64,000 nucleotides of DNA, taken from the NCBI RefSeq assembly GCF_007362775.1, contig NZ_CP041692.1:4216001-4280000 (forward strand). Direction: 5' to 3'. Position 1 is the first letter of the stretch. Every line of letters begins with the position of its first letter. The notes beneath the pieces were generated by a model. It did no database searches. It saw only the letters and a program-made list of their open reading frames with translations, and had not been told where the DNA came from. Positions 30,500 through 45,543 of this stretch are shown here, in pieces. This stretch comes from Microlunatus elymi. GTDB lineage: Bacteria; Actinomycetota; Actinomycetes; Propionibacteriales; Propionibacteriaceae. The position numbers and the translations under genes were made by a program.

Positions 30500-31264
30500 T
30501 CAGGAGCCGATCGGGTGCACAGCCAGGATCGCCATCACGACCGCCATCACCAGGCCGAAAACGACGATGAAGATCTTGAACACCTTGGCCGGGGCGCGGC
30601 GGGCGAGCCAGGCGCCGACCAGGGCACCGAAGATCGAACCGAGCGCGACACAACCGGCCCATTCCCACTCGACCTTGCCGACGAACACGAAGTAGACGGC
30701 CGCGACGATGTTCACCAGGCACTGCAACAGGTTCTTCACCGCGTTCTGCACCTGGATGCCTTCGGCCAGGAACAGTCCGAGCACGGCCAGCAAGATCACG
30801 CCCTGGGCGGCCGAGAAGTAGCCGCCGTAGATCCCAGCGCCGAAAACGCAAGCCAGCAAGGGCAACCAGCGGGTCCCGTCGACCGGCTTCATCGACTTGA
30901 TGATCTTGTTCTGAAAGGCCACCAGCAGAGCTGCGGCCAAGATCAACACCGGTACGACGAGCTGGAACGCCCGAGCCGGCAGCACGGTCAACAGGCTGGC
31001 ACCGATCAGCGCGCCGATCACCGAGGCGATGCCGAGCTTCAGCAGCAGCGGACGGATCTGGGCCAACTCGCGGCGGTAGCCGACGACACCGGCCACCGAA
31101 CCGGGCACCAGGCCGACGGTGTTGGCGATGTTCGCGCTGATCGGCGGGACTCCGAGGAGCACCATCACCGGATAGCTGATCAACGACCCCGAGCCGACGA
31201 TCGTGTTGATCGCGCCGGCACCGAAGCCGGCCGCCATGGTCGCCAGCGCATCCCACAGAGTCAT
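30500..31264 (-). CDS. TauE/SafE-family membrane transporter
   Basis: A 254-aa protein with about eight membrane helices and the family repeat (AAGFGAGAINTIVGSGSLI, then ISANIANTVGLVPGSVAGVV, and in the second half GYFSAAQGVILLAVLGLFL). Members export sulfite, sulfoacetate or other organic anions. ATG 31264 has GGAAGGGG at proper spacing. It is divergent from the amidohydrolase/DUF1097 pair across a TGGTATACCA site, so it probably moves a substrate or product of the catabolic island. Confidence 0.87.
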   Translation of the reverse strand: MTLWDALATMAAGFGAGAINTIVGSGSLISYPVMVLLGVPPISANIANTVGLVPGSVAGVVGYRRELAQIRPLLLKLGIASVIGALIGASLLTVLPARAFQLVVPVLILAAALLVAFQNKIIKSMKPVDGTRWLPLLACVFGAGIYGGYFSAAQGVILLAVLGLFLAEGIQVQNAVKNLLQCLVNIVAAVYFVFVGKVEWEWAGCVALGSIFGALVGAWLARRAPAKVFKIFIVVFGLVMAVVMAILAVHPIGS

Positions 31265-31315
31265 TGATTGCATCCCCTTCCGGGCAGACCACCACTAGCC
31301 AAGCCCAATTCGGCA

Positions 31316-31325
31316 TGGTATACCA
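31316..31325. promoter_or_regulatory. GntR operator site 1 (TGGTATACCA)
   Basis: A perfect 10-bp palindrome between the divergent TauE-like and amidohydrolase genes. The TGGTATACCA core is the common form of FadR/VanR-type GntR operators, and three more copies occur only at gene starts in this island. Confidence 0.72.
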
Positions 31326-31358
31326 GACCGGATATAGATCAGACGAAGGAGAGCTGCG

Positions 31359-32648
31359 GTGCCAGACCTGGTGCTCCACAACGCCGTACTGCCGGGGCTG
31401 CCCGGCCCTCGTACGGTGTCCATCGAAGACGGCCGGATCCAGCGGATCACGGCCGAACATGCAGGCGGGGATCGGCCCCGCGAGGCGGACCGGACCAGTG
31501 GTCCGCTGCGGACGATCGACGTCGGCGGGCGGGCCGTGCTGCCGTCCTTTGTCGAGCCGCATCTCCATCTGGACAAGGCATTGCTGGATGCCCGGCTGCC
31601 CAATCTCGAAGGCACGCTGGCCGGTGCGATCAAGGTCACCGGTGCGTTGAAGGCGGAGTTCACCGTCGACGACTGCATCGACCGGGCTCGTACGGTGCTC
31701 GATCTCGCCATCGCCAACGGCACCGGCACGATCCGGTCCCATCCCGATGTCGACCCGATCGCCCATCTGGTCGGTGTCGACGCGATGCTCGCCCTGCGGG
31801 AGGAGTACCGCGATCGGATCGACCTGCAGATCGTCGCCTTCCCGCAGGAAGGGATCATCAAGGCGCCCGAATCGCTCGCCCTGATGGAAGAGGCTTTGCG
31901 TAAGGGTGCCGACGTGGTCGGCGGCTGTACGTACAACGAGCCGTCGTTGGAAGAGTGCCACGAGCACATCGACGAGGTCTTCGACCTGGCCGAGAAGTAC
32001 GACGTGCCGGTGGACATGCACTGCGATTTCGCCGTCGACGACAGCGATCCGCGGTATGCGCTGGTCGAGCACATCGCCGATGTCGCCATCGCTCGGGGCA
32101 TGCAGGGACGGGTCACCCTCGGTCACATGACCTCGCTCGCCTCTCTGTCCGGCCAGCATCGGATCCAGGTCTGGGACAAGATCCGTCAGGCCGGCATCAA
32201 CATCGTCGTCCTTCCGTTCACCGACATGCATCTGAATGGCCGTGACGATGATCACAACGTCCGGCGGGGGGTCGCACCGGTCACGTTGATGTGGGACGTC
32301 GGCGTCAGCGTCGGCCTGTCCAGCAACAATGTTCGCAACGCGTTCACCCCGTTCGGCAACGCCGACATCCTCGACGTGGCGCTGTTCCTGGCCCAGGTCG
32401 GGCACATGGGATCGCCGTCGCACTTCCAGCGCCTGCTCGACACCGTCACCCATCGCAACGCCGAGATCATCGGCATCGACGAGGGCTACGGGGTGCAGGT
32501 CGGCGACCGTGCCGACCTGGTCGTGCTGGACAATCCGGATCCCGTCGATGCACTACTGTCGCGGTCGGTCCGATCGTTCGTGATCAAGGGCGGCAGGGTC
32601 GTCGCCGAAACCACCAAGTCCACCACTCTTCACCAGGATCACCCATGA
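31359..32648 (+). CDS. cytosine deaminase/AtzC-like amidohydrolase
   Basis: A 429-aa metal-dependent hydrolase. The N-terminal beta domain is LVLHNAVLPG. The metal site begins with EPHLHLDKALL, the HxHLDK motif of the cytosine deaminase/N-isopropylammelide hydrolase branch. Further ligands are VDMHCDF (His), TLGHMTSLA (His) and LSSNNVRN (where many members have Asp). The C-terminus is GDRADLVVLDNPDPVDALLS. The start is GTG 31359 after AAGGAG. It likely deaminates or hydrolyses a ring C-N bond. It is coupled to a DUF1097 protein and controlled by operator site 1. Confidence 0.88.
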   Translation: MPDLVLHNAVLPGLPGPRTVSIEDGRIQRITAEHAGGDRPREADRTSGPLRTIDVGGRAVLPSFVEPHLHLDKALLDARLPNLEGTLAGAIKVTGALKAEFTVDDCIDRARTVLDLAIANGTGTIRSHPDVDPIAHLVGVDAMLALREEYRDRIDLQIVAFPQEGIIKAPESLALMEEALRKGADVVGGCTYNEPSLEECHEHIDEVFDLAEKYDVPVDMHCDFAVDDSDPRYALVEHIADVAIARGMQGRVTLGHMTSLASLSGQHRIQVWDKIRQAGINIVVLPFTDMHLNGRDDDHNVRRGVAPVTLMWDVGVSVGLSSNNVRNAFTPFGNADILDVALFLAQVGHMGSPSHFQRLLDTVTHRNAEIIGIDEGYGVQVGDRADLVVLDNPDPVDALLSRSVRSFVIKGGRVVAETTKSTTLHQDHP

Positions 32649-33223
32649 CCGTCAAGCCCCGGATCGGAACCAAGCCTCGGATCCCAGCCGAGATCAGCGC
32701 ATCGATTCTCGCCGCCACCACCGCCTTCATCGGCGGTGGCGTCCTGCACCTGCCCGTCTGGGGCATCTTCATCAGCTGGGCGGCCACCCACCTGGCCGGC
32801 GGTCCGCGCTTGTCGATCATGAAACGGTTGTGGGTCGCGATGCCTGCCGGGTCGACCTTCGCGTTGATCGTGATCTTGCTCGACAAGCAGTTCGGTACCA
32901 TCCTCGGCGATGGCTACTGGGCCACCTGCGGTGTGCTGGCCGTGATCATCTTCGTGGTGAACTCGGCGCTGATGTACACCGGCCGGACCAAGCTGTTCTC
33001 CCTGGTGCCGGGCATGTTCATGGGCTTCGCATCGATGTTCGCCACCACCTTCGGTGGCTTCGGTCCGGATCCGCAGAACGTCTTCGTCTGCTGGATCGCC
33101 ACCATCGCGATGAACTTCCTCGGCCCGATCTACTCCTGGATCCGGGTTCGGGTCTCGCCCGAGCGTGACGAGGTCGCGCACCTGCGGGATCTGTCCATTA
33201 AGGCTGACGAATCAGCCAGCTGA
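32645..33223 (+). CDS. DUF1097 membrane protein
   Basis: A 192-aa protein with about five membrane helices (ISASILAATTAFIGGG, LPVWGIFISWAATHL, AMPAGSTFALIVILL, WATCGVLAVIIFVVNSAL, FVCWIATIAMNFLGPI). It starts at ATG 32645, overlapping the amidohydrolase stop as ATGA. DUF1097 proteins have no settled function, but this tight coupling to a catabolic hydrolase suggests uptake of its substrate. Confidence 0.82.
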   Translation: MTVKPRIGTKPRIPAEISASILAATTAFIGGGVLHLPVWGIFISWAATHLAGGPRLSIMKRLWVAMPAGSTFALIVILLDKQFGTILGDGYWATCGVLAVIIFVVNSALMYTGRTKLFSLVPGMFMGFASMFATTFGGFGPDPQNVFVCWIATIAMNFLGPIYSWIRVRVSPERDEVAHLRDLSIKADESAS

Positions 33224-33254
33224 TCGATCAAGATCAACAAGTACGGGGCGGGCG

Positions 33255-33923
33255 CTACTCGGCGTCCGCCCCGTCCTCGTCGGTGAACATCGCCAACGAC
33301 CGCTCCCGGGTCCTGATCACGTGCCGACGGGCCAGAATCCCTGCCCACTCGACGTCCTGTTCCTCGATCGCGGCCAACTGCTCAGCATGATCACGCAGCA
33401 GATCGGCATCGTGGCCGACGATGGTGGTGCGGAACAAGCGGCGGATGGTCAGACTCAGCGGTTCCATGATCACCTGCAGCCGGCGGTGATGACTCGCCCG
33501 TGCCAGGGCCGCATGGAATTCGGCGTTGGAGCGTGACCCGGTCGGCGCATCGAAACAGGCCGCCGCCTCGGATGCGTTGTTGATCGCCGCGCGCAACTGC
33601 GCAAGATCATCTTCGGTACGCGCCCGCGCCGCCGCCGCCGCGATGGCCGGCTCCAGCGCCTCCCGGACGTCGAATAACTCGGCCACGTCACGGCGAGTCA
33701 ACTTCCGTACGAAGGCACCCGACCGGGGCTTGACCGTGATCAGACCCTGCGCGGCCAGCGTCAGGATCGCTTCCCGGACCGGGACCCGGGACACCCCGAG
33801 CTCCTCCGACAGGTGGCGCTCGTGGATCCGTTCGCCGGCCCGCAACTCCCCGTCGATGATCCGTTCGCTGATCTGCGAGGTCACCCGGTCGCGCAGAGAG
33901 GGGGTCTGATCTTCTGTGAGCAC
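33255..33923 (-). CDS. GntR-family (FadR subfamily) regulator
   Basis: A 222-aa regulator. The winged helix is at residues 8-75 (LRDRVTSQISERIIDGELRA, RIHERHLSEELGVSRVPVRE, LITVKPRSGAFVRKL). The C-terminal FCD domain (VREALEPAIAAAAARA, NAEFHAALARASHHRRL, DHAEQLAAIEEQD) carries metal-binding His and Asp residues. I chose GTG 33923, and GTG 33956 is possible. It is divergent from fdrA with the palindrome CTGGTATACCAG between. It is the only regulator in the island and probably controls all four sites. Confidence 0.9.
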   Translation of the reverse strand: MLTEDQTPSLRDRVTSQISERIIDGELRAGERIHERHLSEELGVSRVPVREAILTLAAQGLITVKPRSGAFVRKLTRRDVAELFDVREALEPAIAAAAARARTEDDLAQLRAAINNASEAAACFDAPTGSRSNAEFHAALARASHHRRLQVIMEPLSLTIRRLFRTTIVGHDADLLRDHAEQLAAIEEQDVEWAGILARRHVIRTRERSLAMFTDEDGADAE

Positions 33924-33984
33924 TGGTTCAGCGTACGACCTCGGCCTTTGCGCCACCCGGCGGATTGTGCTGAGCCCGCCAGCT

Positions 33985-33996
33985 CTGGTATACCAG
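33985..33996. promoter_or_regulatory. GntR operator site 2 (CTGGTATACCAG)
   Basis: A perfect 12-bp palindrome, the longest of the four, between gntR (leftward) and fdrA (rightward). Its place in the regulator's own promoter is the main reason to tie the motif to this GntR protein. Confidence 0.78.
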
Positions 33997-34043
33997 AATG
34001 CGTGACGGCCGCGGCCACCCGGCGGATTCAGATGGAGGCGCCA

Positions 34044-35744
34044 ATGTTGAAAATCGTGATCAAGCCCAATCAGTACTCCGACTCCGTGTCGTTGATGCTG
34101 CTGAGCAAGAAGTTGACCGACCTGGACGGAGTCGATCAGGTCTCCGTGATGATGGGCAGCCCGGCCAACCGGGAGATCCTGGCAGCGACCGGTTTCGACG
34201 GTCCGGAACTGGAACAGGCCGGCCCCGGCGACCTCGTGGTCGGCGTCATCGCCCAGTCCGACGAGGCCGTCGAGAATGTCCTCGGCCGGATCGACGAGGA
34301 ACTCAGCGCCCAGAGCGCGAGCCGTCGTTCTACCGGTATCCAGGGCGTCCGCTCGCTGAGCCGGGCGCTCACCAAATCCCCCGACGCCGAGCTCGCACTC
34401 GTGTCGATTCCCGGTGATCATGTCGCCGGCCAGGTGGACGCTCTGCTGGACGCCAATCTGGACGTGATGATCTTCTCCGACAACGTCACCATCGACGACG
34501 AGGTCCGGCTGAAGACCAAGGCCCGCGACCGTGGCCTGATGGTGATGGGCCCGGACTGCGGCACCTCGTCGCTCGGCGGGATCCCGCTGGCCTTCGCCAA
34601 CTCCACTCGCAAGGGTTCGATCGGCATCGTCGGCGCCTCCGGCACCGGCACCCAGGAAGTGATGATCCAGATCGATCGACTCGGTGGCGGCATCAGCCAC
34701 GCGATCGGCCTGGGTGGTCGCGATCTGAGCTCCGAGGTCGGCGGAATCACTTGTCTGCAAGCGATGTCGGCCCTGGACGCTGATCTGAACACCGACACCA
34801 TCGTGATCGTGACCAAGCCGCCGGCAGCCGAGGTCCGCGCCCGGGTCGAGCAGGCCGCGGCCCAGCTCAGCAAGCCCGTGGTCGCGCTCTTCCTCGGTGA
34901 GCGTCCGCAGACCGACCGCGCCGGCAACATTCACTTCGCCTGGACCCTGGACGAGGCCGCGGCCAAGGCCGTCGAACTGACCGGCACCGCCGGCTTCGCG
35001 CCGGCAACCGGCCAGCGCAATCTGGTCGGGCTCTACACCGGCGGCACTCTGGCCTCCGAGGCGGCGATGCTGGTCCGCGACTCCTTCGACCTGCCGGCGT
35101 TGGATCCGCACCATCCCAACGGGATGATCCTCGACCACGACGGCTTCCAGGTCATCGACCTGGGCGACGACGTCTACACCCGCGGCCGGCCGCATCCGAT
35201 GATCGACCCGTCCTCGCGGACCGATCACATGCCGCAGGTCTTCGACGATCCGGCCACCGCGGTGGTACTGCTCGACCTGGTGCTCGGCTACGGCGCCACC
35301 GACGATCCGGCTGGTGCGGTTGCCGTACCGATCCGGGAGGGCCTGGAGCGTGCCCAGGCCGCAGGCCGCGCGATCAAGGTCGTGGCATCGATCTGCGGCA
35401 CCGACCGGGATGCGCAGAATCTGCAACAGCAGAAGGACATCCTGACCGAGGCCGGTGTCACCGTGCTGGCCTCCAATGCGGCCGCCGTACGGCATGCGAT
35501 CTCCTTGATCGAATCGGCTCGGGCCGGTCATGCCGATGCCGTCGCTGACGCTGATCAGCAGCCGGTGCCGGCCCGGATCGCCGATCTGCTGGACGGTCCG
35601 CCCAAGATCATCAACGTCGGGTTGCGTTCGTTCGCGACCGACCTCGCCGATGCCGGAGCCGCCGTCACCCAGTACGACTGGTCGCCGATCGCCGGTGGCG
35701 ATCCCCGCCTTGCCCGGCTCGTCAGCCTGCTCGCCAATCGTTAA
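34044..35744 (+). CDS. fdrA: FdrA-like subunit of oxamate-type transcarbamylase
   Basis: A 566-aa protein of the FdrA/acyl-CoA synthetase-like family. Two Rossmann CoA-binding-like domains are seen: LKTKARDRGLMVMGPDCGTS, then GIVGASGTGTQEVMIQIDRL and GISHAIGLGGRDLSSEVGG. The C-terminal ligase-like part contains VGLYTGGTLASEA and DHMPQVFDDP. In E. coli, FdrA (AllF) works with YlbE (AllG) and YlbF (AllH) as oxamate transcarbamylase. The start is ATG 34044, seven bases after GGAGG. It heads the five-gene operon fdrA-DUF1116-DUF2877-arcC-arcC, behind operator site 2. Confidence 0.9.
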   Translation: MLKIVIKPNQYSDSVSLMLLSKKLTDLDGVDQVSVMMGSPANREILAATGFDGPELEQAGPGDLVVGVIAQSDEAVENVLGRIDEELSAQSASRRSTGIQGVRSLSRALTKSPDAELALVSIPGDHVAGQVDALLDANLDVMIFSDNVTIDDEVRLKTKARDRGLMVMGPDCGTSSLGGIPLAFANSTRKGSIGIVGASGTGTQEVMIQIDRLGGGISHAIGLGGRDLSSEVGGITCLQAMSALDADLNTDTIVIVTKPPAAEVRARVEQAAAQLSKPVVALFLGERPQTDRAGNIHFAWTLDEAAAKAVELTGTAGFAPATGQRNLVGLYTGGTLASEAAMLVRDSFDLPALDPHHPNGMILDHDGFQVIDLGDDVYTRGRPHPMIDPSSRTDHMPQVFDDPATAVVLLDLVLGYGATDDPAGAVAVPIREGLERAQAAGRAIKVVASICGTDRDAQNLQQQKDILTEAGVTVLASNAAAVRHAISLIESARAGHADAVADADQQPVPARIADLLDGPPKIINVGLRSFATDLADAGAAVTQYDWSPIAGGDPRLARLVSLLANR

Positions 35745-35760
35745 GTAGAAGGACAAACTC

Positions 35761-37092
35761 GTGACCACCTCCACAAACGCTTCTGTCAACACGACCGAGA
35801 CCCAGGCTCCTGACGATCGGCACGAGATCGACTCCGCCAACGCCGAAGTCGTCGCCGCCATGACGGCCGGCCAGCCGGTGCTCGTCGACGTCGTCACCGC
35901 TCGTACGGTGATCGGCGTCCTGGACGAGCAGACCCCGACCCTGCTGCACGCCGGTCCCCCGGTCGACTTCGCCGACATGCCCGCCCCGATGCAGGCCTCC
36001 TGCGTCGGCGCCGCCTTCTTCGAGGGCTGGGCCGCCGACGAGGCCGCCGCGCGTGAGTTCATCGCCAGCAAGGTTCGCTTCGTTCCCTGTCACCACGTCG
36101 ATGCGGTGGGCCCGATGGGCGGCATCACCAGCGCGAACATGGCCGTCGTGGTGGTGGAGAACCGTGCCAGCGAGAACCCGACCGAGTGGAATCGCGCGTA
36201 CGCGACCATGAACGAGGGCATCGGCAAGGTGCTGCGGTTCGGCGCCTTCGACTCCGAGGTCGTCGATCGGCTGCACTGGATGGCCAAGGTGCTCGGCCCG
36301 TCGCTGTCGGCCGCATTGGCCAGCACCGACGAGGGCTACCCACTGATGCCGGTGATCGCCCGCGCGATCGCTATGGGCGACGAATTCCATCAGCGCAACA
36401 TCGCCTCCTCGGCGATCTTCGCCAAGGATTTCGCGCCGTTGTTGATCAAGGCCCGTCTGGGCACCGAGCAACTGGCCGGGGTGACCGACTTCCTCGGTCG
36501 TACCGATCAGTTCTTCCTCAACCTGGCCATGGCTTCCTGCAAGGCGATCATGGACGCCGCCCGCAAGATCACCAAGGGCTCGATCGTCACCGCGATGACC
36601 CGGAACGGGCACGAATTCGGTATCCGGGTCTCCGGACTCGGCGATCGCTGGTTCACCGCTCCGGTGAACACCCCGGAAGGCCTCTTCTTCACCGGCTACT
36701 CCCAGGATCAGGCTTGCCCGGACATGGGCGACAGCGCGATCACCGAGACCTTCGGCCTGGGTGGCATGTCGATGATCGCCGCCCCGGCGGTGACCCGGTT
36801 CGTCGGTGCCGGCGGCCTCGGCGATGCACAGGCGATCAGCGAGGAGATGGCCGAGATCGTCTTCGGCCACAACGCGATGTTGTCCATCCCGACCTGGGAC
36901 TTCCAGGGCACGCCGACCGGTATCGACATCCGCAAGGTGGTGGAGACCTCGATCACGCCGATCATCAACACCGGCATCGCTTCGCTGGAGCCGGGGGTCG
37001 GGCAGATCGGCGCCGGCACTGTCCGCGCGCCGCTGGGCTGTTTCACCAAGGCTCTGGAAGCATTGGCCGAAACCTACGGCGTGGACGCCTGA
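35761..37092 (+). CDS. DUF1116 protein, AllG/YlbE-like
   Basis: A 443-aa DUF1116 protein (SANAEVVAAMTAGQPVLVDV, VGPMGGITSANMAVVVVEN, GDEFHQRNIASSAIFAKDF, GLGDRWFTAPVNTPEGLFF, GLGGMSMIAAPAVTRFVG). The family always accompanies FdrA, and the E. coli member is a subunit of oxamate transcarbamylase. The start is GTG 35761, 16 bp after fdrA, with AGAAGGAC as binding site. The Gly-rich and conserved His positions look complete, so the complex is probably active, although its substrate here may differ from oxalurate. Confidence 0.9.
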   Translation: MTTSTNASVNTTETQAPDDRHEIDSANAEVVAAMTAGQPVLVDVVTARTVIGVLDEQTPTLLHAGPPVDFADMPAPMQASCVGAAFFEGWAADEAAAREFIASKVRFVPCHHVDAVGPMGGITSANMAVVVVENRASENPTEWNRAYATMNEGIGKVLRFGAFDSEVVDRLHWMAKVLGPSLSAALASTDEGYPLMPVIARAIAMGDEFHQRNIASSAIFAKDFAPLLIKARLGTEQLAGVTDFLGRTDQFFLNLAMASCKAIMDAARKITKGSIVTAMTRNGHEFGIRVSGLGDRWFTAPVNTPEGLFFTGYSQDQACPDMGDSAITETFGLGGMSMIAAPAVTRFVGAGGLGDAQAISEEMAEIVFGHNAMLSIPTWDFQGTPTGIDIRKVVETSITPIINTGIASLEPGVGQIGAGTVRAPLGCFTKALEALAETYGVDA

Positions 37093-37111
37093 ACAGCTCA
37101 CCGCTGTGCCG

Positions 37112-37948: not shown

Positions 37949-37950
37949 TC

Positions 37951-38868: not shown

Positions 38869-39803
38869 TGCGAGTTGTCGTAGCACTCGGCGGCAATGCG
38901 CTGGCTCGGCGTGGTGAGCCGATGACCGCGGACCGGCTGCGAGCCAACGTCCGGGCGACCTGTCAGGCGTTGGCCGGGTTGGCCCGCGAACACGAGCTGG
39001 TGATCACCCACGGCAACGGGCCGCAGGTCGGCCTGCTGGCGTTGCAGAATCTCGCCTACTCCGATGTCGCGGCCTACCCGTTGGACATCCTCGGCGCCGA
39101 GACCCAGGGCATGATCGGGTACGTCATCCAGCAGGAGTTGTCCAATGCGCTGGCCGGCGAGCGTGAGGTGGCCGGGGTGCTCACCACCACGGTGGTCAGC
39201 GAGGACGATCCGGCCTTCGATCGACCGACCAAGTTGATCGGCCCGCAGTACTCGGCGCAGGATGCGGCCGAGGCCGCAGCCGAATACCGCTGGACGATCG
39301 CTCGGGACGGCAAGCTGTTCCGGCGGGTGGTGCCCTCCCCCGATCCGATCCGGATCGTGCAGGCTCCGTTGGTCCAACTGCTGCTGGAAAGTGGGCGTCT
39401 GGTCGTCTGCGTCGGTGGTGGCGGCGTACCGGTGAAGACCAGTGGCGGCCGGGAGATCGGCATGCAAGCCGTGGTGGACAAGGACCTCGCCAGCGCAGCG
39501 CTGGCCGCGGAGCTGCAGGCCGACACGTTGATCATGCTCACCGATGGCGACTACGTCAGCGAGAACTGGGGAACCCCGCAGCAGCGCGACATCCTCACCG
39601 CGACCCCGGAGGCCATCTCCGAGCTGCGCTTCGCCGAAGGCTCGATGCAGCCGAAGGTCGATGCCGCCATCCGGGTCGCAAAGGCCGGTGGCCGCGCGCT
39701 GATCGGCCCGCTCGATCGACTGGACGACCTGCTCGCCCGCAAGATCGGCACCGAGATCAAGCCCGGCGTCCCGGACGGCATCGTCTTCGTCAACGGGGCG
39801 TAG
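38868..39803 (+). CDS. arcC: carbamate kinase 2
   Basis: A 311-aa paralogue of the preceding gene with all key motifs (VVALGGNALARRG, ITHGNGPQVGLLAL, PLDILGAETQGMIGY, VCVGGGGVPV, QAVVDKDLASAALA, GSMQPKVDAAIRV). ATG 38868 overlaps the first kinase's stop as TGATG, with TGGAGG upstream. The two copies differ clearly along their length, so this is an old duplication rather than a recent repeat. It ends the five-gene operon, before a GCGCAC/GTGCGC hairpin. Confidence 0.92.
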   Translation: MRVVVALGGNALARRGEPMTADRLRANVRATCQALAGLAREHELVITHGNGPQVGLLALQNLAYSDVAAYPLDILGAETQGMIGYVIQQELSNALAGEREVAGVLTTTVVSEDDPAFDRPTKLIGPQYSAQDAAEAAAEYRWTIARDGKLFRRVVPSPDPIRIVQAPLVQLLLESGRLVVCVGGGGVPVKTSGGREIGMQAVVDKDLASAALAAELQADTLIMLTDGDYVSENWGTPQQRDILTATPEAISELRFAEGSMQPKVDAAIRVAKAGGRALIGPLDRLDDLLARKIGTEIKPGVPDGIVFVNGA

Positions 39804-39834
39804 CGCACCAGGCCCAAAGTTGCCCCGTGCGCGC
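39802..39834 (+). terminator. hairpin after the carbamate kinase operon
   Basis: Stem GCGCAC/GTGCGC with an inner GGC/GCC pair, between the two convergent operons. There is no T-run, so it may act in both directions or be Rho-aided. Confidence 0.4.
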
Positions 39835-39847
39835 TGCCGGATCCCGG

Positions 39848-41307
39848 TCAGCGTAGCGGGAAGCTCGGGGGCTGCAGCTCCTCGATTCTGCGGTGGGCGT
39901 AGTCGGACAGCGTGTGATGGGCGATGTAGTCGTCGAGGAACTCCTGCGCCCGGCCGAGATAGCTCGAGTCGTCGACCGTGATGATCTTGCTGTCCTCGAC
40001 GACGGTTCGACCGGCCACCACCACCCTGCTGATGTCCCGGCCGTCGCCGTTCATGATCAAGGTACGGATCGGGTCGGCGTGCGGGCCGACATGACTCGCG
40101 GCCAGATCGAGGACGAAGTAGTCCGCCTGCGCGCCGACCGCCAGCCGACCAAGATCATCTCGGCCAAGAGCTTCGGCCGGATCCAGAGTCGCCGACCGGA
40201 AGAGGTCCGCCGGAGCGGCCGCGGTCCGGTCGCCGGTGATCGTCTTCATCATGATCATCGCCATGTCCATCGCCTTGATCAGGTTCGGCGGGGCCGAATC
40301 CGTGCCCAACACGATCCGTACCCCCGCGTCACGGTAGGAGTCGTACGTGTGCAGGCAGCCTCCGTAGTGTCCGGTCGGGATCGGGCAGAAGATCACCGCG
40401 GTGCCCGCGTCGGCGAGCAGTGCGATGTCGTCGCCGGTGCCGTACTTTGCCGGCATCAGCGGGTGGCCGGGCACCGTCCAGGCATGCGGGATGAACGTCT
40501 TGGGTGCGAGAAACCCAAGATCGGCAAGGTACGGAAGCGGCCGGCGACCGGTCGCTTCGACGATCCTCTCGACTTCGAACAATCCCTGCGCGGCGTGCAA
40601 TCTGACCGGTACGCCCAGCTCGTCTGCGGCCTGCCGGGTCAGCCTCAGCGTCCGTTCCGTCTGAGTCTCGATCCTGGCCGGCAACAATGCGCCGCGGATC
40701 AGCCCAGCGGCGGTCCCGTCGTAGTCCTGGACGAATCGAACGGCCTCGTCCAGCCCGGCCAGGCCCTGCAATTCGTCGTGGTGCAGCAACATCCGTCGGC
40801 CATCGGTGTACGGCACCGCCGTCCGATAGCTCGGCCCGAAGTAGGCCCGGATGCCGAGCGCGGTCACCGCCTCGGCGGTGTCGGCCAGATCGCGGTAGTC
40901 CTCGCACCACTGTTTGTACGTCTCCGCCGCGATCGGCATCATCGTGGTGATCCCGTTGCGGATCAGCTGGGAGATCGCGAACTCGCGTCGAAAGCGCTCT
41001 TGCTCCCGCTCGAACACCGGACCATGATCACGAAGATATTCCTGTGACCACACCAGGCCGAGCCGACGGCCGGCGTCGGGCCACGAATCGAAGAGCGCAT
41101 GATCGATGTCGGCCAGCGCGTTCAGGTCGATGAAGCCCGGGCAGACGATCGCGTTGCCGGCGTCGAACTCCGCGTCGACGTGACCCGGGTATCCCCGCCC
41201 ACGTGGATGATCCGATCGTCGTCGTGGACGAGTTCGGCGTCCGGCAGGATGCAGTGATCAGCGTCGGCATAGCCGATCACGTACGCTGCGCGGATTTTCG
41301 TGATCAT
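39848..41307 (-). pseudogene. frameshifted amidohydrolase (AtzA/TrzN-like branch)
   Basis: The N-terminal 43 codons from ATG 41307 (ITKIRAAYVIGYADADHCIL, then RIIHVGGDTRV) and the following codons (VDAEFDAGNAIVCPGFIDL) are in different frames, joined near 41181. A single missing C in CACGTCGAC would restore it. The rest, about 400 aa, is intact: HAAQGLFEVERIVEATGR, PHAWTVPGHPLM, IVLGTDSAPPNLIKAMDMAM and GAQADYFVLDL. The first metal site differs from the usual HxH (FIDLNALADIDH). It is either recently dead, a sequencing error, or translated from an internal start. It lies behind operator site 3. Confidence 0.78.
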
Positions 41308-41337
41308 GGTCGACTCCGCTGGTAACGATCGGCAGTC

Positions 41338-41347
41338 CCGTATACCA
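41338..41347 (-). promoter_or_regulatory. GntR operator site 3 (half-conserved)
   Basis: On the minus strand it reads TGGTATACGG, one complete half plus the central TATA. It is in the 52-bp gap just upstream of the frameshifted amidohydrolase. Confidence 0.55.
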
Positions 41348-41359
41348 TTTGGATCCCGA

Positions 41360-42550
41360 TCATCCCAGGTACTCTCCGGCCCGAGCAACGATCCGTCCGG
41401 CCTTGATCACCGTACGGTCGACGGGCAGCGCGACGATTGGCTCGACCGGCGTCTGGCCGGGCATCAGCACCAGGTCGGCGCTGCAGCCCGGTGCGATGCC
41501 GAAGTCGGCGACGTTCATGATCGTGGCCCCACCCACACTGATCAGGTCGTACACGGTGTCCAGCTCCTCGTCGGTGGACAGGCCGTTGCGCCAGGCAAGC
41601 TGGTAACCCTTGAACAGCATGTCCGACCGGTTCATCGGTCCCCATGAGTCGAGGGCCCCGTCGCACCCCGAACCGATCGTCAGCCCGGCCGCGCGGGCCA
41701 GCCGCAGCGGCGGCTTCGGATCACCGCTGGGCGCGTTGGTGGTGATCGCGATACCGGCTTCGACCATGCCGTCGATCAGTCGTCGCGCGGACACCTCGTC
41801 GACACCGCCGAGGAAGTCGGGATGGCTGATCACGACCTTCCCGGCGAGCCCGGTCGCGCGGGTCCGCTCGATGATCAACTCCGCTGAGAAGGCACCGAGG
41901 GCACCGGCCTCGTGCAGATGAACGTCGACCCCAGCACCATGCTTGACCGCGAGATCGAACAACAGATCAAGGTGTTTCACCGGATTCCGCTCAAGCATGC
42001 AGGGGTCGATACCGCCGATGATGTCCGCACCCTCGCCCAGGGCCGCATCGAGCAACTCTTCGGTGCCGGGGCGGGTCGCAACTCCACTCTGCGGGAACGC
42101 GATGATCTGCATGGTCAATGCAGCTGCGTACCGTTCCCGGACCGCGATCATCGCCTCCAGCCCGCGCAGGCCGGCATCGGTGTCGATGTCGACGAAGGCG
42201 CGGGTGTGCGTCGCCCCGTTGCCGATCATGACCTCGGCGTTGCGACCGATCTGTCGCTCGTAGACCCAGTCCGGCGACCGCCGCAGATCACGCTCGTCGG
42301 CAACCATCCGTTGCAGCCCTCGGCCCGGCTCGCGGTGATACCAGTCCATGCCCAGCAGAGACTTGTCCAAGTGCGAGTGCGCGTCGACGAACCCCGGCAC
42401 CAGCACCTTCCCGGTTCCGTCGAGGACCTCGATCCCGGGCGGCGCGATCAGCCCCGCTCCGATCGACTCGATCCTGGAGTTCATGATCAACACGTCACCG
42501 CGCCGGTGTCCGCGTGGCAGCACGTTCTTGATCAACAAGTCGTTCGGCAT
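41360..42550 (-). CDS. cytosine deaminase-like amidohydrolase
   Basis: A 396-aa metal-dependent hydrolase with DAHSHLDKSLLGMDW (HxHLDK metal motif), FPQSGVATRPGTEELLDAAL, GVDVHLHEAGALG, VISHPDFLGG, GLTIGSGCDGALDSWGPMN (catalytic Asp in GCD) and GCSADLVLMPGQTPVEPIV. ATG 42550 with AAGGAG five bases upstream was preferred to GTG 42556. It is divergent from the AtzD-like gene with operator site 4 between them, and precedes the frameshifted amidohydrolase on the same strand. Confidence 0.9.
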   Translation of the reverse strand: MPNDLLIKNVLPRGHRRGDVLIMNSRIESIGAGLIAPPGIEVLDGTGKVLVPGFVDAHSHLDKSLLGMDWYHREPGRGLQRMVADERDLRRSPDWVYERQIGRNAEVMIGNGATHTRAFVDIDTDAGLRGLEAMIAVRERYAAALTMQIIAFPQSGVATRPGTEELLDAALGEGADIIGGIDPCMLERNPVKHLDLLFDLAVKHGAGVDVHLHEAGALGAFSAELIIERTRATGLAGKVVISHPDFLGGVDEVSARRLIDGMVEAGIAITTNAPSGDPKPPLRLARAAGLTIGSGCDGALDSWGPMNRSDMLFKGYQLAWRNGLSTDEELDTVYDLISVGGATIMNVADFGIAPGCSADLVLMPGQTPVEPIVALPVDRTVIKAGRIVARAGEYLG

Positions 42551-42589
42551 CTTCACTCCTTGCTGGTTCGACAGCTTCTGAGCGACAAA

Positions 42590-42599
42590 TGGTATACAG
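42590..42599. promoter_or_regulatory. GntR operator site 4 (TGGTATACAG)
   Basis: One base from the perfect TGGTATACCA, in the 77-bp gap between the divergent amidohydrolase (42550) and AtzD-like gene (42628). It could control both. Confidence 0.65.
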
Positions 42600-42627
42600 T
42601 TTTTGCCGTTCGGATAGAGGAGAACCG

Positions 42628-43740
42628 ATGGTTGCAGAGACGCAGATCGATGCCGTGCGGGTGCCGATGGCGCACACCGGTGACGTCTGTGAGCTGGACC
42701 TGCTGCTGACCGACGGCCGACTACACCCCGACGACGTGATCGCGGTGACCGGAAAGGTCGAGGACTCGAACACCGGCGGCAACAGCCGGGTGGACGCCGA
42801 CCATGCCGTACGACGCTTCCTGGCCGAGCGCGGAACCAGATCCGAACCTGAGATCGGCACGATCCCGATGGTTTTCACCACCGGTGGCGTCGGCATTCTC
42901 ACCCCGCATCTGGTGGTGTACAGCCGTAGCCGAGCCGAGCCGGCTCCCGACGGGGGTCCGCGGCTTGCGGTCGGCACGGCCCGTTCGGCGCGGATGCTGC
43001 CGCAGTGGACCGGCACCGCTCGGGTGATCGAAGCGAACGCCGATGCCGTCCGCGCCGCCGCCGACGACGCCGGGCTGCTCCCCGAGCAGACGGAATACGT
43101 TGTGGGTAAGGCATATCACCCGTCCCAGCAGGCTCTCGCCGCCGCGCGAGCCGCCGGGAAGGACATCGACGCGCTCGATGACGACACGCTGTTTCGCAAG
43201 ACCAGCGGCAGCGCGGCACTCGGCGTCGCGGTCGCGACGCACGAACTGGCATTGCCGAGCGGCAATCAGGTCGGCGTCGAACCGGGGCTGTGGTCCGGTC
43301 GGGCCTGCATCTCGGCCAACGCGTGGGAACCGGTCGGCGGCAACGGACCGGACACCCAGCTGATCCTGATGGGCAACCGCCCCGGCGCCGGCGGCCGGTT
43401 GCGGGTCGGACGCGCTGTGATCGGTGATCTGCTCGACGTGGACGCGCTGCCGCGGGCGCTGCGCCGGGCAGGGCTCGAGGTCGGGCCGGGGCCGCTCACC
43501 GCCGACCAGCGGGCTCGGGTGATCGCCGTCTACGTCAAGATCGGTCTGCCTCCGGACGGACTGCTGCGTGGCCGGCGGCAGGTGATCGAAAGTCCGTCGT
43601 ACTCGGGCGAGGTCAAGATTGCAGCCGGTGCCATGTTCGCCGGCTGGCTGCAGGACACGATGATCTATCTCTCCGGTTCGGCCAGCCACCAGGGCCCGCC
43701 GGGCGGCGGCACCCTGGCTGTGATCGTCGACGTCAGCTGA
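42628..43740 (+). CDS. ring-opening amidohydrolase, AtzD/TrzD/barbiturase family
   Basis: A 370-aa member of the cyanuric acid hydrolase/barbiturase family, which opens cyclic imide rings with three Ser-Lys dyads in a threefold repeat. The three Lys are visible at 43 (VTGKVEDS), 161 (VVGKAY) and 304 (VYVKIG). Other signs are ILTPHLVVYSR, KTSGSAALGVAVATHE, LILMGNRPG, LRVGRAVIGDLLD and YLSGSASHQGPPGGG. The first-domain Ser of the FSGGTEG motif is replaced (FTTGGVG), so it is a divergent member and its ring substrate is open. ATG 42628 follows GAGGAG. It ends 8 bp inside the opposite amidohydrolase gene. Confidence 0.82.
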   Translation: MVAETQIDAVRVPMAHTGDVCELDLLLTDGRLHPDDVIAVTGKVEDSNTGGNSRVDADHAVRRFLAERGTRSEPEIGTIPMVFTTGGVGILTPHLVVYSRSRAEPAPDGGPRLAVGTARSARMLPQWTGTARVIEANADAVRAAADDAGLLPEQTEYVVGKAYHPSQQALAAARAAGKDIDALDDDTLFRKTSGSAALGVAVATHELALPSGNQVGVEPGLWSGRACISANAWEPVGGNGPDTQLILMGNRPGAGGRLRVGRAVIGDLLDVDALPRALRRAGLEVGPGPLTADQRARVIAVYVKIGLPPDGLLRGRRQVIESPSYSGEVKIAAGAMFAGWLQDTMIYLSGSASHQGPPGGGTLAVIVDVS

Positions 43741-44941
43741 CCCGGACCCCGCGGCGAAAGACCCGTTCGCGGGAGGACCGGCGGGCGACTGCCTCAGCGG
43801 TGCAGGAAGCCCGTACCAGCAGGAAACTGGCCCGATCACCGACCGACGGCCAGGCTCGCCGGCCGTCCACCGACCATCGGGCCGGCTCGCCGGCGCCGAA
43901 CAGCAGCGACTGCGCGAGCCGGCGTTCGTCGGACCAGCCGAAACGCTGCGCGAGCATCCACACCTGCTCCAGAATGTCGCCCTGACCGAACGGAGTGAGG
44001 ATGTCGGTGATGCTGTCACTGCCGAGAGAAACCGCAACCCCGGCAGCAGAAAGGGCCGGAATCGGGATCACCGGACCGCCGACGGCCATGGTGGTGCCGA
44101 CCGCCATGCGGGCGTCCGCAAGCCGCTCGGCCGCTGCCGCGACGGTTCCCGGGTCGGCGTTGGCCAGCGCGTTGGCGTTGCTCAGCGACACCCGACCCTG
44201 CCAGCCGGCGTCGATCGTGTAGTCGATCACCCGGTCGAGCTCGAACAGGCCGAGGGTGCCCGGATCGTGCAGGTGCAGGTCGACACCGACGTCGTACTCC
44301 ACCGCCAGGTCGAAGATCGTTTCCAACGTCCGTTCGACGTTGCGCTCGCGGGATCCCGGATCCAGACCGCCGACCACCGAGGCACCCGCCCGCAGAGCCT
44401 GGGCCAGCAGCGGTTTGATCTTTCCGTCCTGCAGCCCGTGTTGCGGATACGCGACGACCTCGGTGCCGACATCGCCGCGGCCACGTACGACCTCCAGCAC
44501 ACGCTCCACGTTGCGAGTGCCGATCACATGGTCAACATTGCAGTGCGCGACCACCTCGGTCGTGCCGTTGGAGATCAGCAGGTCGAGAATCGCGTTGCTA
44601 CGAACGGGAATCGCCTCCGACATCTCCGGCAGCAGCCGCTCCTCCTCGGCCAGCCAGAATCGGCCCGGAACGGGGGCCCGCCACGCTCCACCGTAGAAGG
44701 TCTTGTCCAGATGCACGTGGGTGTCCCGCAGCGACGGGAGTAGCAGCAGCCCGTCGGCGTCGACGATCGCCTCGGACGGTGGTGCCGAGTCGCCGATCCG
44801 GATCTCTGCGAAGGAACCGTCGACGATCTTGATCGCACTCGGGCTCGCCTCGGTCCTGGCGCCATCCTCCGTGTCGATGATCGCGGTCTCGACCAGGACA
44901 TTGTCCAACCAGACAACGCGTTCTGGTACGACGTCGGTCAT
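43733..44941 (-). CDS. amidohydrolase, cytosine deaminase/AtzC-like
   Basis: A 402-aa metal hydrolase with LRDTHVHLDKTFYGGAW (HxHLDK), VVAHCNVDHVIGTRNVERVL, YPQHGLQDGKIKPLLAQAL, GVDLHLHDPGTLG, VSLSNANALA and VAVSLGSDSITDILTPFGQG (catalytic Asp in GSD). It is close in layout to the enzymes at 31359 and 41360. ATG 44941 overlaps the ankyrin gene stop as ATGA, so it is translationally coupled. It overlaps the AtzD-like gene tail to tail by 8 bp. Confidence 0.88.
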   Translation of the reverse strand: MTDVVPERVVWLDNVLVETAIIDTEDGARTEASPSAIKIVDGSFAEIRIGDSAPPSEAIVDADGLLLLPSLRDTHVHLDKTFYGGAWRAPVPGRFWLAEEERLLPEMSEAIPVRSNAILDLLISNGTTEVVAHCNVDHVIGTRNVERVLEVVRGRGDVGTEVVAYPQHGLQDGKIKPLLAQALRAGASVVGGLDPGSRERNVERTLETIFDLAVEYDVGVDLHLHDPGTLGLFELDRVIDYTIDAGWQGRVSLSNANALANADPGTVAAAAERLADARMAVGTTMAVGGPVIPIPALSAAGVAVSLGSDSITDILTPFGQGDILEQVWMLAQRFGWSDERRLAQSLLFGAGEPARWSVDGRRAWPSVGDRASFLLVRASCTAEAVARRSSRERVFRRGVRVS

Positions 44942-45543
44942 TGGGCGCCGGCCTGACGCAACCGGTCGGCGACGGTGGCAGGGCCGCGTTGTTCGGCATG
45001 CTGGAGCGGGGTGACGCCGTCGCCGTCGGGCAGGTTCGGGTCCGCGCCGGCCGTGAGCAGGATGTCGACGACCTGCTGATGCCGGGTCCCTCCCGTACCG
45101 AGAATGATCGCCTCCAGCAGGGCGGTCCAGCCGAGCCGGTTGACATGATCAAGATCGAGATCCAGGTCGACCACTCTGCGGACGTAGTCCACGTGCCCAC
45201 GCTCGCTGGCAGGGATGATCGAGATCCCGCCGTACCGGTTGACCAGAGTGAAGTCCGGATTCCCCGGCAGCAATGACTCGACCATCGCCACACCGCCGGT
45301 CACCCCGGTCACCAACCAGGCGGTGTCGTGTCGATCGTCGACGGTGTTGGGATCGGCGCCGGCGGCAACCAGCACCCGGGCCACCTCGACCCGGTCCTGC
45401 GCGGCGGCCAACAGCAACGGCGTGCGGCCGTGGTCGTCGCGAGCCTCGAGTGCCGCGCCGTTCCGGAGGGCGTTCTGGACGCGATCGACATTGCCGGTCG
45501 CGGCTGCGGCCAGCAGTTCTTCGTCAACGGTCGGCGAGGTCAT
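44938..45543 (-). CDS. ankyrin-repeat protein
   Basis: A 201-aa cytosolic protein of about five ankyrin repeats (LLAAAATGNVDRVQNALRNG, DDHGRTPLLLAAAQDRVEVA, ASERGHVDYVRRVVDLD, NRLGWTALLEAIILG, DGDGVTPLQHAEQRG). Ankyrin repeats bind proteins. It is first in a two-gene operon with the amidohydrolase. Actinobacteria often carry such proteins beside catabolic enzymes, with no known role. Confidence 0.9.
   Translation of the reverse strand: MTSPTVDEELLAAAATGNVDRVQNALRNGAALEARDDHGRTPLLLAAAQDRVEVARVLVAAGADPNTVDDRHDTAWLVTGVTGGVAMVESLLPGNPDFTLVNRYGGISIIPASERGHVDYVRRVVDLDLDLDHVNRLGWTALLEAIILGTGGTRHQQVVDILLTAGADPNLPDGDGVTPLQHAEQRGPATVADRLRQAGAQ

Follow-up and report, generated by a model that had tools for sequence, protein, structure and literature searches.

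The island at positions 30500–45543 of the window, the 64,000-nucleotide stretch of the genome of the soil actinobacterium Microlunatus elymi that was analysed, has about an even chance of encoding a GntR-controlled catabolic pathway for an external cyclic imide or ureide, which would serve as a source of both nitrogen and energy. The proposal draws on the gene content, the operator-like sites, the clade membership of AllFGH and the conserved catalytic positions of an AtzD relative, and from these we infer all of its reactions and its substrate.

Gene content of the island

Pfam and NCBIfam profile scans place every gene family named in the earlier note where that note had located it, and add to its list an ankyrin-repeat gene at the right-hand end. 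Among the genomes compared, the exact gene combination is found in this genome only. The genes are as follows.

30500–31273, minus strand: TauE/SafE membrane protein, candidate carboxylate transporter (PF01925, 150 bits)
31359–32648, plus strand: AH1, CodA-like amidohydrolase (Amidohydro_3; closest solved structure cytosine deaminase, 229 bits)
32645–33223, plus strand, start chosen by eye: DUF1097 membrane protein (PF06496, 61 bits)
about 33255–33923, minus strand: GntR/FCD regulator (PF00392 and PF07729)
34032–35744, plus strand, start chosen by eye: allF (FdrA) subunit (NCBIfam PRK06091, 687 bits)
35761–37092, plus strand: allG (DUF1116) subunit (295 bits)
37085–37948, plus strand, start approximate: allH (DUF2877) subunit (PF11392, 81 bits)
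37951–38868, plus strand: carbamate kinase 1 (CK1), of the type A cluster kind (NCBIfam arcC, 369 bits)
38865–39803, plus strand: carbamate kinase 2 (CK2; NCBIfam match)
39848–41307, minus strand: AH2, PRK06151-type amidohydrolase, frameshifted (NCBIfam match and frame reading)
41360–42556, minus strand: AH3, AtzC-type amidohydrolase (closest solved structure 6nbo, 305 bits)
42628–43740, plus strand: AtzD/barbiturase-family (Toblerone-fold) ring-opening enzyme, Amido_AtzD_TrzD (PF09663, 214 bits)
43733–44941, minus strand: AH4, YahJ-like amidohydrolase (38% identical to YahJ)
44938–45543, minus strand: ankyrin-repeat protein, YahD-like (PF12796; 34% identical to YahD)

The absence of an allantoinase, noted earlier for the island, extends to the whole genome, in which the best match to TIGR03178 reaches 244 bits against a curated cut-off of 358 bits. 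An E. coli-type anaerobic allantoin pathway was rejected on this ground.

AllFGH and the carbamate kinases

The genes for AllF, AllG and AllH are adjacent and on the same strand, in what appears from the sequence to be an operon-like arrangement. AllG and AllF group with their E. coli counterparts with tree support of 100/100 and 100/99, respectively, E. coli AllF forming a long branch, and identity to the E. coli proteins is 61% for AllG, 44% for AllF, 27% for AllH and 50–52% for the kinases. Judged by these trees, the AllFGH set of the island is a member of the clade of the E. coli oxamate transcarbamylase; AllG and AllF fall outside both the barbiturase-linked clade and the clade of plasmid-borne cassettes. 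The subunits, gene order and clades are those of E. coli AllFGH (oxamic transcarbamylase) and AllK. Whereas the E. coli set adjoins allB, allC, allD and allE of the allantoin pathway, the island has amidohydrolases and an AtzD relative in their place, together with GntR control and two kinases.

The E. coli yahDEFGHIJ cluster encodes an ankyrin protein (YahD), AllH-, AllF- and AllG-like proteins, a carbamate kinase-like protein (YahI) and an amidohydrolase (YahJ); the annotation of this stretch contains no AtzD-family gene and names no pathway. The island shares with it an ankyrin protein and AH4, 34% and 38% identical to YahD and YahJ, but its AllFGH lies in the all clade and not in the YahFG clade, and a yah-type identity was therefore rejected. 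The two kinases are 54% identical to each other. CK1 is 57–63% identical to the kinases of type A clusters, whereas CK2 is 81–90% identical to the kinase in seven of the 13 AllFGH loci of the yah type (type M), a closeness from which separate acquisition of CK2 is probable. In nitrifiers, allFGHK lies beside triuret and biuret genes, and GntR regulators appear in the gene map legend; the authors found no atzD and read AllFGHK as oxalurate degradation (PMC12625717). Collocation with other ureide hydrolases is common to both systems and the AtzD relative is particular to the island.

The AtzD relative and the amidohydrolases

The AtzD relative belongs to the Toblerone-fold cyclic amide hydrolases by both fold and PF09663. 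Its AlphaFold model (pLDDT 89.6) has a TM score of 0.90 to barbiturase 5hxz, and barbiturase is its nearest solved relative (177 bits, the next 140 bits), yet the tree sets its clade outside both the cyanuric acid hydrolases and the barbiturases. Three Lys-Ser dyads were compared, namely Lys42/Ser85, Lys162/Ser233 and Lys296/Ser344 in AtzD numbering. The three lysines and the Ser233 and Ser344 positions are retained; threonine stands at the Ser85 position and again at the Gly86 position, and a six-residue insert follows the Ser233-Ala234 position. At positions 195, 321, 325, 345 and 346 the protein has Ser, Ser, Lys, Gly and Ser, position 321 being reached through a gapped loop where the alignment is less sure. 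The corresponding signatures are Arg195, Thr321, Arg325, Gly345 and Gly346 for cyanuric acid hydrolase and Asn195, His321, Lys325, Val345 and Ser/Ala346 for barbiturase (PMC3758960). A cyanuric acid hydrolase identity was rejected on these residues, as was a barbiturase identity, with which agreement is confined to Lys325 and Ser346.

The protein thus shares family, fold and the catalytic Lys and Ser/Thr positions with the barbiturase of oxidative pyrimidine catabolism (Bar, 5hwe) but differs from it in clade, signature residues, the two threonines and the insert. The s-triazine pathway likewise sets amidohydrolases (AtzC) beside an AtzD-family ring opener, although the island has AllFGH and carbamate kinase instead of biuret and allophanate hydrolases.

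AH1, AH3 and AH4 were compared at the HxH motif, His214, Glu217, His246 and Asp313, columns taken from CodA (3o7u), which we take to be the catalytic set of that enzyme in numbering and roles. AH3 is the only one to keep all of these residues. AH1 has Asn in place of Asp313, and AH4 has Asn at the His246 position and Asp at the Glu217 position. AH2 is broken in the assembly by a frameshift near 41200, the gene as first delimited covering 39848–41053 on the minus strand while its 5' part starts at an ATG at 41307 and is read in a different frame; the HxH metal motif is missing from the AH2 relatives in loci L102 and L104. AH3 and AH4 are closest to AtzC-type enzymes. The earlier description as four amidohydrolase enzymes is too simple, AH3 alone keeping every catalytic residue checked, and the deamination assigned to the four can be questioned for two or more of them, judged by their altered catalytic residues.

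Operator-like sites and the possible origin of the island

Four operator-like sites lie in the island; distances are given to the genes that they precede.

31316–31325: palindrome TGGTATACCA; distance to AH1 33 bp, to the TauE gene 42 bp
33986–33995: palindrome TGGTATACCA; distance to allF 36 bp, to the GntR gene 62 bp
41338–41347, minus strand: site TGGTATAC; distance to AH2 30 bp
42590–42599, plus strand: site TGGTATAC; distance to the AtzD-family gene 28 bp, to AH3 33 bp

The motif TGGTATAC stands 28–36 bp 5' of the likely starts of AH1, allF, AH2, the AtzD-family gene and AH3; no such site was seen in front of the AH4-ankyrin unit, and beyond the island the window holds one further copy, at 24647. 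The 5.1 Mb genome has three copies of the full palindrome TGGTATACCA, two of them in the island, and no copy of the reversed control; the third copy is flanked by a second GntR/FCD gene on one side and an AtzC-type amidohydrolase with an MFS gene on the other. The motif WTGGTATAC gives six strand-hits in the genome (three in the island, two at the third palindrome and one near an ANTAR regulator) and none for its control. Elsewhere, TGGTATAC is found in 5/5 type A and 12/13 type M loci as against 0/30 comparison loci (L059–L088). In Arthrobacter horti the palindrome precedes the AtzD match (L101) by 120 bp, and the separate AllFGH locus (L191) holds a half site. The sites common to the island's genes support the GntR control suggested earlier, and their owner is probably the island's own GntR/FCD regulator. 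Shared sites are, however, no proof of a single regulator, given the second GntR/FCD gene with the same palindrome and the presence of TGGTATAC in L110 and L114 (among the nine loci L107–L115), which belong to genomes without AllG.

The left half of the island, without AH1 and DUF1097, has the TauE-GntR-AllFGH-CK content of the type A loci of four genomes of the same family (G433, G486, G633 and G471), with 66–71% identity for TauE and 47–49% for GntR. The right half resembles AtzD-AH3-AH4-ankyrin in G641, of the same genus, at 60–81% identity (70% for the ankyrin gene), and G641 has no AllG. The island looks, from these likenesses, to have been assembled from an AllFGHK-TauE-GntR unit of the family, an AtzD-AH3-AH4-ankyrin unit of the genus and a kinase of the kind that yah-type clusters carry.

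Co-occurrence of the AtzD family and AllFGH

The co-occurrence that the earlier note had proposed as a check is borne out, mainly elsewhere. In the phylum sample AllG is present in 22/27 AtzD-family genomes compared with 49/396 overall, and in all 21 genomes with a barbiturase signature; in the order sample it is present in 73/74 AtzD-family genomes, and 12 of 85 AllG genomes, type A ones included, have no AtzD-family gene. Plasmid records, mostly enterobacterial, hold a cyanuric acid hydrolase gene together with AllG in 47 of 48 cases. On plasmids of enterobacteria and related hosts, cyanuric acid hydrolase forms a cassette with AllFGH and carbamate kinase, in which the ring opener matches the cyanuric acid hydrolase signature.

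Closer to the island the association is weaker. Among named Microbacterium genomes, those that carry an AtzD gene of this clade or of its sister branch have AllG in 4/6 cases, against 5/248 other genomes of the family; in the Microbacteriaceae sample, five of six AllG genomes lack an AtzD-family gene. No AllFGH gene was found in the stretch around the close AtzD relatives that the comparison covered, at most 10 kb on either side, in 18/18 loci (L089–L106, of which L092 and L102 are shortened by contig ends). The genomes behind these loci carry AllG elsewhere in 7/17 cases and no AllG in 10/17; one of the seven, G702, carries two AllG genes and also a second AtzD-family gene, which falls in the barbiturase size class. 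Gene places in G702 equal those in G555. Other neighbours of the AtzD gene are an HMGL-like gene in L090 and L099, and an ABC solute-binding protein, malate synthase and a hydantoin-racemase-like protein in L102. The sequence of ring opening, AllFGH and carbamate kinase put forward earlier therefore has a strong genomic association elsewhere and a weaker one here, where the AtzD relatives stand without adjacent AllFGH.

Proposed pathway and alternatives

In the proposed pathway, the substrate would be imported by TauE and/or the DUF1097 protein, and AtzC/CodA-type amidohydrolases, of which AH3 is competent by its residues, would strip substituents from the ring. The AtzD relative would then open the ring and release an N-carbamoyl amide acid. 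Given the place of AllFGH in the E. coli oxamate-transcarbamylase clade, this acid is most likely oxalurate, the product expected from a parabanate-like five-ring imide. Phosphorolysis by AllFGH would give oxamate and carbamoyl phosphate, from which carbamate kinase would form ATP, CO2 and NH3. Parabanate opens spontaneously at neutral or alkaline pH, according to PMC5703782, so a dedicated enzyme is not obviously needed.

The AtzD clade without AllG and the AllG genomes without an AtzD-family gene indicate that each half can function by itself, and the two may be separate pathways under one regulator. It is possible, if somewhat doubtful, that AllFGHK acts on oxalurate (or a comparable ureido acid) taken up from outside, and that the AtzD-AH3-AH4-ankyrin module serves to break down another cyclic amide, the product of which bypasses AllFGH. 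The type A AllFGHK genomes that lack any AtzD-family gene fit this arrangement, as do the absence of AllG from 10/17 genomes with the AtzD clade and from G641, and the other partners of AtzD in L090, L099 and L102. Set against it are the operator-like sites that the main promoters have in common, the higher than expected frequency of AllG in the named Microbacterium genomes and the general linkage of the two families elsewhere.

The nearest solved relative and the 21/21 barbiturase-signature genomes with AllG would suit the conversion of barbiturate, or a substituted form, to ureidomalonate and then, by AllFGH, to malonamate and carbamoyl phosphate. This is unlikely: the barbiturase signature is absent, AllG and AllF lie outside the barbiturase-linked clade, and the molybdenum hydroxylase seen in barbiturase-AllFGH clusters (PF20256) has no match in the genome. 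A cyanurate- or s-triazine-like route, in which AtzC-like amidohydrolases and the AtzD relative would turn an amino-triazine into carboxybiuret for AllFGH to phosphorolyse to allophanate, is very unlikely, for the cyanuric acid hydrolase signature is lacking and AllG and AllF fall outside the plasmid-cassette clade, despite the AtzC-type affinity of AH3 and AH4 and the plasmid cassettes that join such a hydrolase to AllFGH.

AllFGH as a possible phosphorolase family

The AllG and AllF trees track the upstream enzyme, and the proteins from plasmid cassettes group together, whether the cassette carries cyanuric acid hydrolase or an enzyme resembling triuret hydrolase. This suggests that the ureido acids phosphorolysed by AllFGH complexes form a homologous series, namely oxalurate, ureidomalonate and carboxybiuret. 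The broader reading, which we regard as finely balanced, is that AllFGH is a phosphorolase family for N-carbamoyl amides (HOOC-X-CO-NH-CO-NH2), with clades that match the upstream enzyme, that it provides a general ATP-yielding route, and that the island contributes one more AtzD clade, acting on a new substrate. The oxalurate clade (no X) would include E. coli and this island, the ureidomalonate clade (X = CH2) the barbiturase clusters, and the carboxybiuret clade (X = NH) the plasmid cassettes. Ring or chain opening would be followed by phosphorolysis and carbamate kinase, in place of hydrolysis via urea or allophanate, for fragments of pyrimidines, triazines and oxidised purines.

If this is correct, cyanurate, barbiturate and related cyclic ureides would give ATP via carbamoyl phosphate besides nitrogen, and a mobile plasmid cassette would make ATP from cyanuric acid. 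The E. coli yah cluster would gain a testable function, and the molybdenum hydroxylase with AllFGH would become candidate genes for steps of oxidative pyrimidine degradation. A further class of substrate would, in turn, be indicated for the AtzD/barbiturase fold.

Gene content of the island

The window occupies positions 4216001–4280000 of a single 5.12 Mb contig. The gene set that the earlier note had placed at 30500–45543, in which an AllFGH-type transcarbamylase and two carbamate kinases lie beside ring-opening and other amidohydrolases, was confirmed and extended by family matches. Gene starts were picked by eye.

Left half, from 30500: TauE-like protein (−), the CodA-like amidohydrolase AH1 (+), DUF1097 protein (+), GntR/FCD regulator (−)
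Middle, all (+): AllF (FdrA), AllG (DUF1116), AllH (DUF2877), carbamate kinase 1, carbamate kinase 2
Right half, to 45543: the PRK06151-type amidohydrolase AH2 (−), the AtzC-type amidohydrolase AH3 (−), AtzD-family enzyme (+), the YahJ-like amidohydrolase AH4 (−), ankyrin-repeat protein (−)

The flanks are apparently unrelated, with an acetyltransferase gene before the island and genes for SCP_3 and YkuD proteins after it.

The AtzD-family enzyme

The window enzyme lies outside both the barbiturases and the cyanuric acid hydrolases (100/100) in a tree of AtzD-family sequences of at least 280 aa, in which one protein assigned beforehand to the window-type group (P0093) was placed among the cyanuric acid hydrolases. 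The enzyme keeps the Lys42, Lys162, Lys296, Ser233, Ser344 and Arg54 positions, has Thr at the Ser85 and Gly86 positions and, within its subclade, carries a six-residue insert after the Ser233-Ala234 position. An AlphaFold model has a mean pLDDT of 89.6 and a TM score of 0.90 to barbiturase. At the five specificity positions of the family, defined in section 12 of PMC3758960, it has Ser, Ser, Lys, Gly and Ser, position 321 being aligned via a gapped loop. This set agrees with neither of the two signatures, that of cyanuric acid hydrolases and that of barbiturases, nor with groups IV and V as described in the same section. The reading of the window enzyme as a barbiturase or a cyanuric acid hydrolase was dropped, as both signature and tree disagree with it.

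Two Micromonospora loci suggest a putative other pathway for this AtzD clade. In L102 (3838–17124) and L104 the AtzD relative is clustered with GntR and with AH3- and AH2-like proteins, and L102 also encodes an ABC solute-binding protein, an Asp/Glu/hydantoin racemase family protein, malate synthase and a GCV_T protein.

Clades of AllFGH and the plasmid cassettes

The window proteins are 61% (AllG), 44% (AllF), 27% (AllH) and 50–52% (kinases) identical to those of E. coli. Trees of AllG (75 rows, stretches of at least 330 aa, and 30 rows, at least 300 aa) and of AllF (24 rows, at least 350 aa) are concordant; in these and in the AtzD-family tree, several HSPs per locus were reduced to one, with L088 exempt in the 75-row tree. 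The window falls in one clade with E. coli AllFG and with type A clusters, which come from the same family. Another clade consists of the barbiturase-linked clusters (type B), and a further one of E. coli YahFG with clusters of Microbacterium, Arthrobacter, Sinomonas and the order (type M), the labels A, B, M and I being our own. The AllG and AllF of two plasmid cassettes form a separate clade with those of L079 and L080. Deep branches between the clades have weak support.

The yah genes of E. coli K-12 (L205, 331000–347000), yahDEFGHIJ, form a second AllFGH-like set with an ankyrin protein, a carbamate-kinase-like protein and an amidohydrolase. In actinobacteria, too, most of the yah-type AllFGH loci seen have an ankyrin gene alongside. 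In one yah-type cluster (L179, 15236–16081) a heliorhodopsin gene adjoins the carbamate kinase.

The plasmid cassettes are as follows.

NZ_CP042536.1, 98000–122000 (L203): cyanuric acid hydrolase cassette on the conjugative enterobacterial plasmid pE51_002 of Citrobacter
NZ_CP029742.1, 86000–104000 (L206): second cassette, with cysteine hydrolase, AllFGH, carbamate kinase, cytosine permease and LysR

Between IS26 copies, the pE51_002 cassette encodes a ring-opening amidohydrolase, a nucleobase symporter, AllH, AllF, AllG, carbamate kinase and LysR. All positions of the cyanuric acid hydrolase signature are present in the ring-opening enzyme, which shares 72% identity with the Moorella enzyme. 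Its gene occurs in 48 plasmid records and AllG of at least 90% identity in 48, of which 47 are common to both. Most hosts belong to the Enterobacterales; also included are one Aeromonas and one Shewanella. E. coli and Klebsiella plasmids carry the second cassette, in 82 records that are all typed conjugative. The best solved match of its cysteine hydrolase is the triuret hydrolase TrtA (269 bits), followed by 6azo (241 bits), a biuret hydrolase entered as 'Putative amidase', and the biuret hydrolase 6xjm (231 bits). In L079 a TrtA-like gene adjoins AllF. According to PMC7948467, carboxybiuret is the product of both TrtA and cyanuric acid hydrolase. A shared AllG/AllF clade of the two cassettes and L079/L080 is what would be expected if that clade acts on carboxybiuret.

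Barbiturase clusters and co-occurrence of the two families

The full barbiturase cluster of L059 comprises a peptidase-M24 protein, barbiturase, an amidohydrolase, a uracil/xanthine permease, carbamate kinase, AllH, AllF, AllG, molybdenum hydroxylase subunits, CoxG and an amidase. We infer that it would convert a uracil-type base through barbiturate and ureidomalonate to malonamate and carbamoyl phosphate. The barbiturase/AllFGH clusters L059, L062, L065, L067, L069, L070, L074 and L076 encode a xanthine dehydrogenase-type molybdenum hydroxylase, which is a candidate uracil/thymine dehydrogenase.

The co-occurrence that the earlier note had proposed to look for was borne out, mainly outside the window. 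In the sample of the phylum (396 genomes), 49 genomes have AllG and 27 have an AtzD-family gene, 22 of these 27 together with AllG. For the order (293 genomes) the counts are 85 and 74, with both in 73, the exception being the same-genus genome G641; Fisher tests gave 4e-18 and 6e-55, respectively, values that ignore kinship. AllG accompanied the barbiturase signature in all 21 phylum-sample genomes that carry it (on one contig with the AtzD gene in 16, within 10 kb in 13), and among the remaining six AtzD-family genomes it was found only in the window's. For the order, the signature check covered 30 of the 74 genomes, with 30 loci; L057, cut at a contig end, was left out of the signature classes. 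Of eight named genomes with the barbiturase signature, two are without AllG (L110 and L111), and an amidase gene adjoins the barbiturase in L110.

Among 249 Microbacteriaceae, AllG was present in six, an AtzD-family gene in two and both only in the centre genome, G692, so the association in this family rests on six Microbacterium genomes chosen for the AtzD gene, with AllG in four of them versus 5 of 248 others, a comparison not corrected for kinship. In G903, another genome of the family, the AtzD-family gene matches neither signature and AllG is absent.

In the open-access literature searched, barbiturase together with carbamate kinase was not found, nor was ring-opening or cyanuric acid amidohydrolase with FdrA or carbamate kinase; cyanuric acid and carbamate kinase came together only in a nitrifier study (PMC12625717).

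Operator-like sites

Exact copies of the palindrome TGGTATACCA lie at 31316 and 33986 of the window, and TGGTATAC occurs in the island at 41340 (reverse strand) and 42590, with an additional copy outside it at 24647. The sites end 28–36 bp upstream of the likely starts of AH1, allF, AH2, AtzD and AH3, 42 bp from that of TauE and 62 bp from that of the GntR gene. The whole genome holds TGGTATACCA at three places (reversed control, none), the only one outside the island being at 2132231, with a second GntR/FCD gene on one side and, on the other, an AtzC-type amidohydrolase gene that is followed by an MFS transporter gene.

Positions 2126001–2139000 of the same contig (L196), 5238–8722: second GntR/FCD gene, TGGTATACCA, AtzC-type amidohydrolase and MFS transporter

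The motif WTGGTATAC has six strand-hits in the genome versus none in the control: three in the island, two at 2132230–2132241 and a sixth, apparently fortuitous, near an ANTAR response regulator. By locus group, TGGTATAC was present in 5/5 type A loci, 12/13 type M loci, 0/30 of L059–L088, 2/18 of L089–L106 and 2/9 of L107–L115. A motif upstream of AtzD is not general among relatives, as TGGTATAC lies within 400 bp upstream in one of the 18 loci L089–L106 (L101); the same search with the shorter core GTATAC found four (L090, L093, L094 and L101). In Arthrobacter horti (G698) the palindrome is 120 bp upstream of the AtzD match of L101, with a half site in a separate AllFGH locus (L191), and in L114, of the sister branch, it is 54 bp upstream of the start of the tblastn match.

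Since the same palindrome also adjoins another GntR/FCD gene of this genome, the motif was not accepted as proof that there is a single regulator. It seems to be used by more than one GntR/FCD protein and therefore speaks for one regulon without proving it.

The amidohydrolases

The nearest match of AH1 is cytosine deaminase and that of AH3 and AH4 an AtzC-type structure. For AH2 the nearest entries carry just the name amidohydrolase, and 8-oxoguanine deaminase and triazine hydrolase rank lower. AH3 keeps every catalytic residue checked. Asp313 is replaced by Asn in AH1, likewise in L114, and His246 by Asn in AH4, likewise in L194; E. coli YahJ, a 38% relative of AH4, keeps the His. AH2 (39848–41307) is frameshifted near 41200, and as its relatives in L102 and L104 are without the HxH metal motif, the PRK06151-type family may not be ordinary metal-dependent amidohydrolases. 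With these changes in AH1 and AH4, the frameshift in AH2 and the motif missing from its relatives, a simple deamination cascade is no more than a possibility.

Function and origin of the island

Two familiar pathways were rejected for the island: that for allantoin, since no allantoinase above the cut-off was found in the genome, and the oxidative pyrimidine pathway, since the genome is without a molybdenum hydroxylase match and the window AllFGH falls in another clade. The strongest rival to one joint pathway is that each half of the island serves a pathway of its own, with one regulator for both. The type A loci L176, L178, L181 and L183 have the order TauE-GntR-AllFGH-carbamate kinase, which is the left half without AH1 and DUF1097, and no AtzD-family match was found in their genomes. 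In G641, genes for AtzD (60% identical to the window's), AH3 (76%), AH4 (81%) and the ankyrin protein (70%) lie side by side, and no AllG was found. AllFGH was beside AtzD relatives of 42–62% identity in none of 18 loci (up to 10 kb each side), and AllG was elsewhere in the genome in 7 of 17 genomes with such relatives.

The window appears to be a hybrid. It would combine a type A AllFGH-kinase unit with an AtzD unit like that of the same genus, in which the ankyrin protein and AH4 are yah-like (YahD and YahJ), and with a second carbamate kinase, whose 81–90% identity to kinases in 7 of the 13 type M loci suggests horizontal transfer.

Clade membership points to oxalurate as the substrate of the window AllFGH, in which case the matching ring would be a parabanate-like imide. 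According to the abstract of PMC5703782, however, parabanate undergoes ring opening by itself when the pH is neutral or alkaline, so that the pathway of the window may start from a different ring or a substituted form.

As N-carbamoyl amides, oxalurate, ureidomalonate and carboxybiuret are homologous to one another. The simplest unifying reading of these gene clusters is that AllFGH complexes would be phosphorolases of such acids, each clade matched to the ring or chain opener upstream of it, with carbamate kinase yielding ATP.
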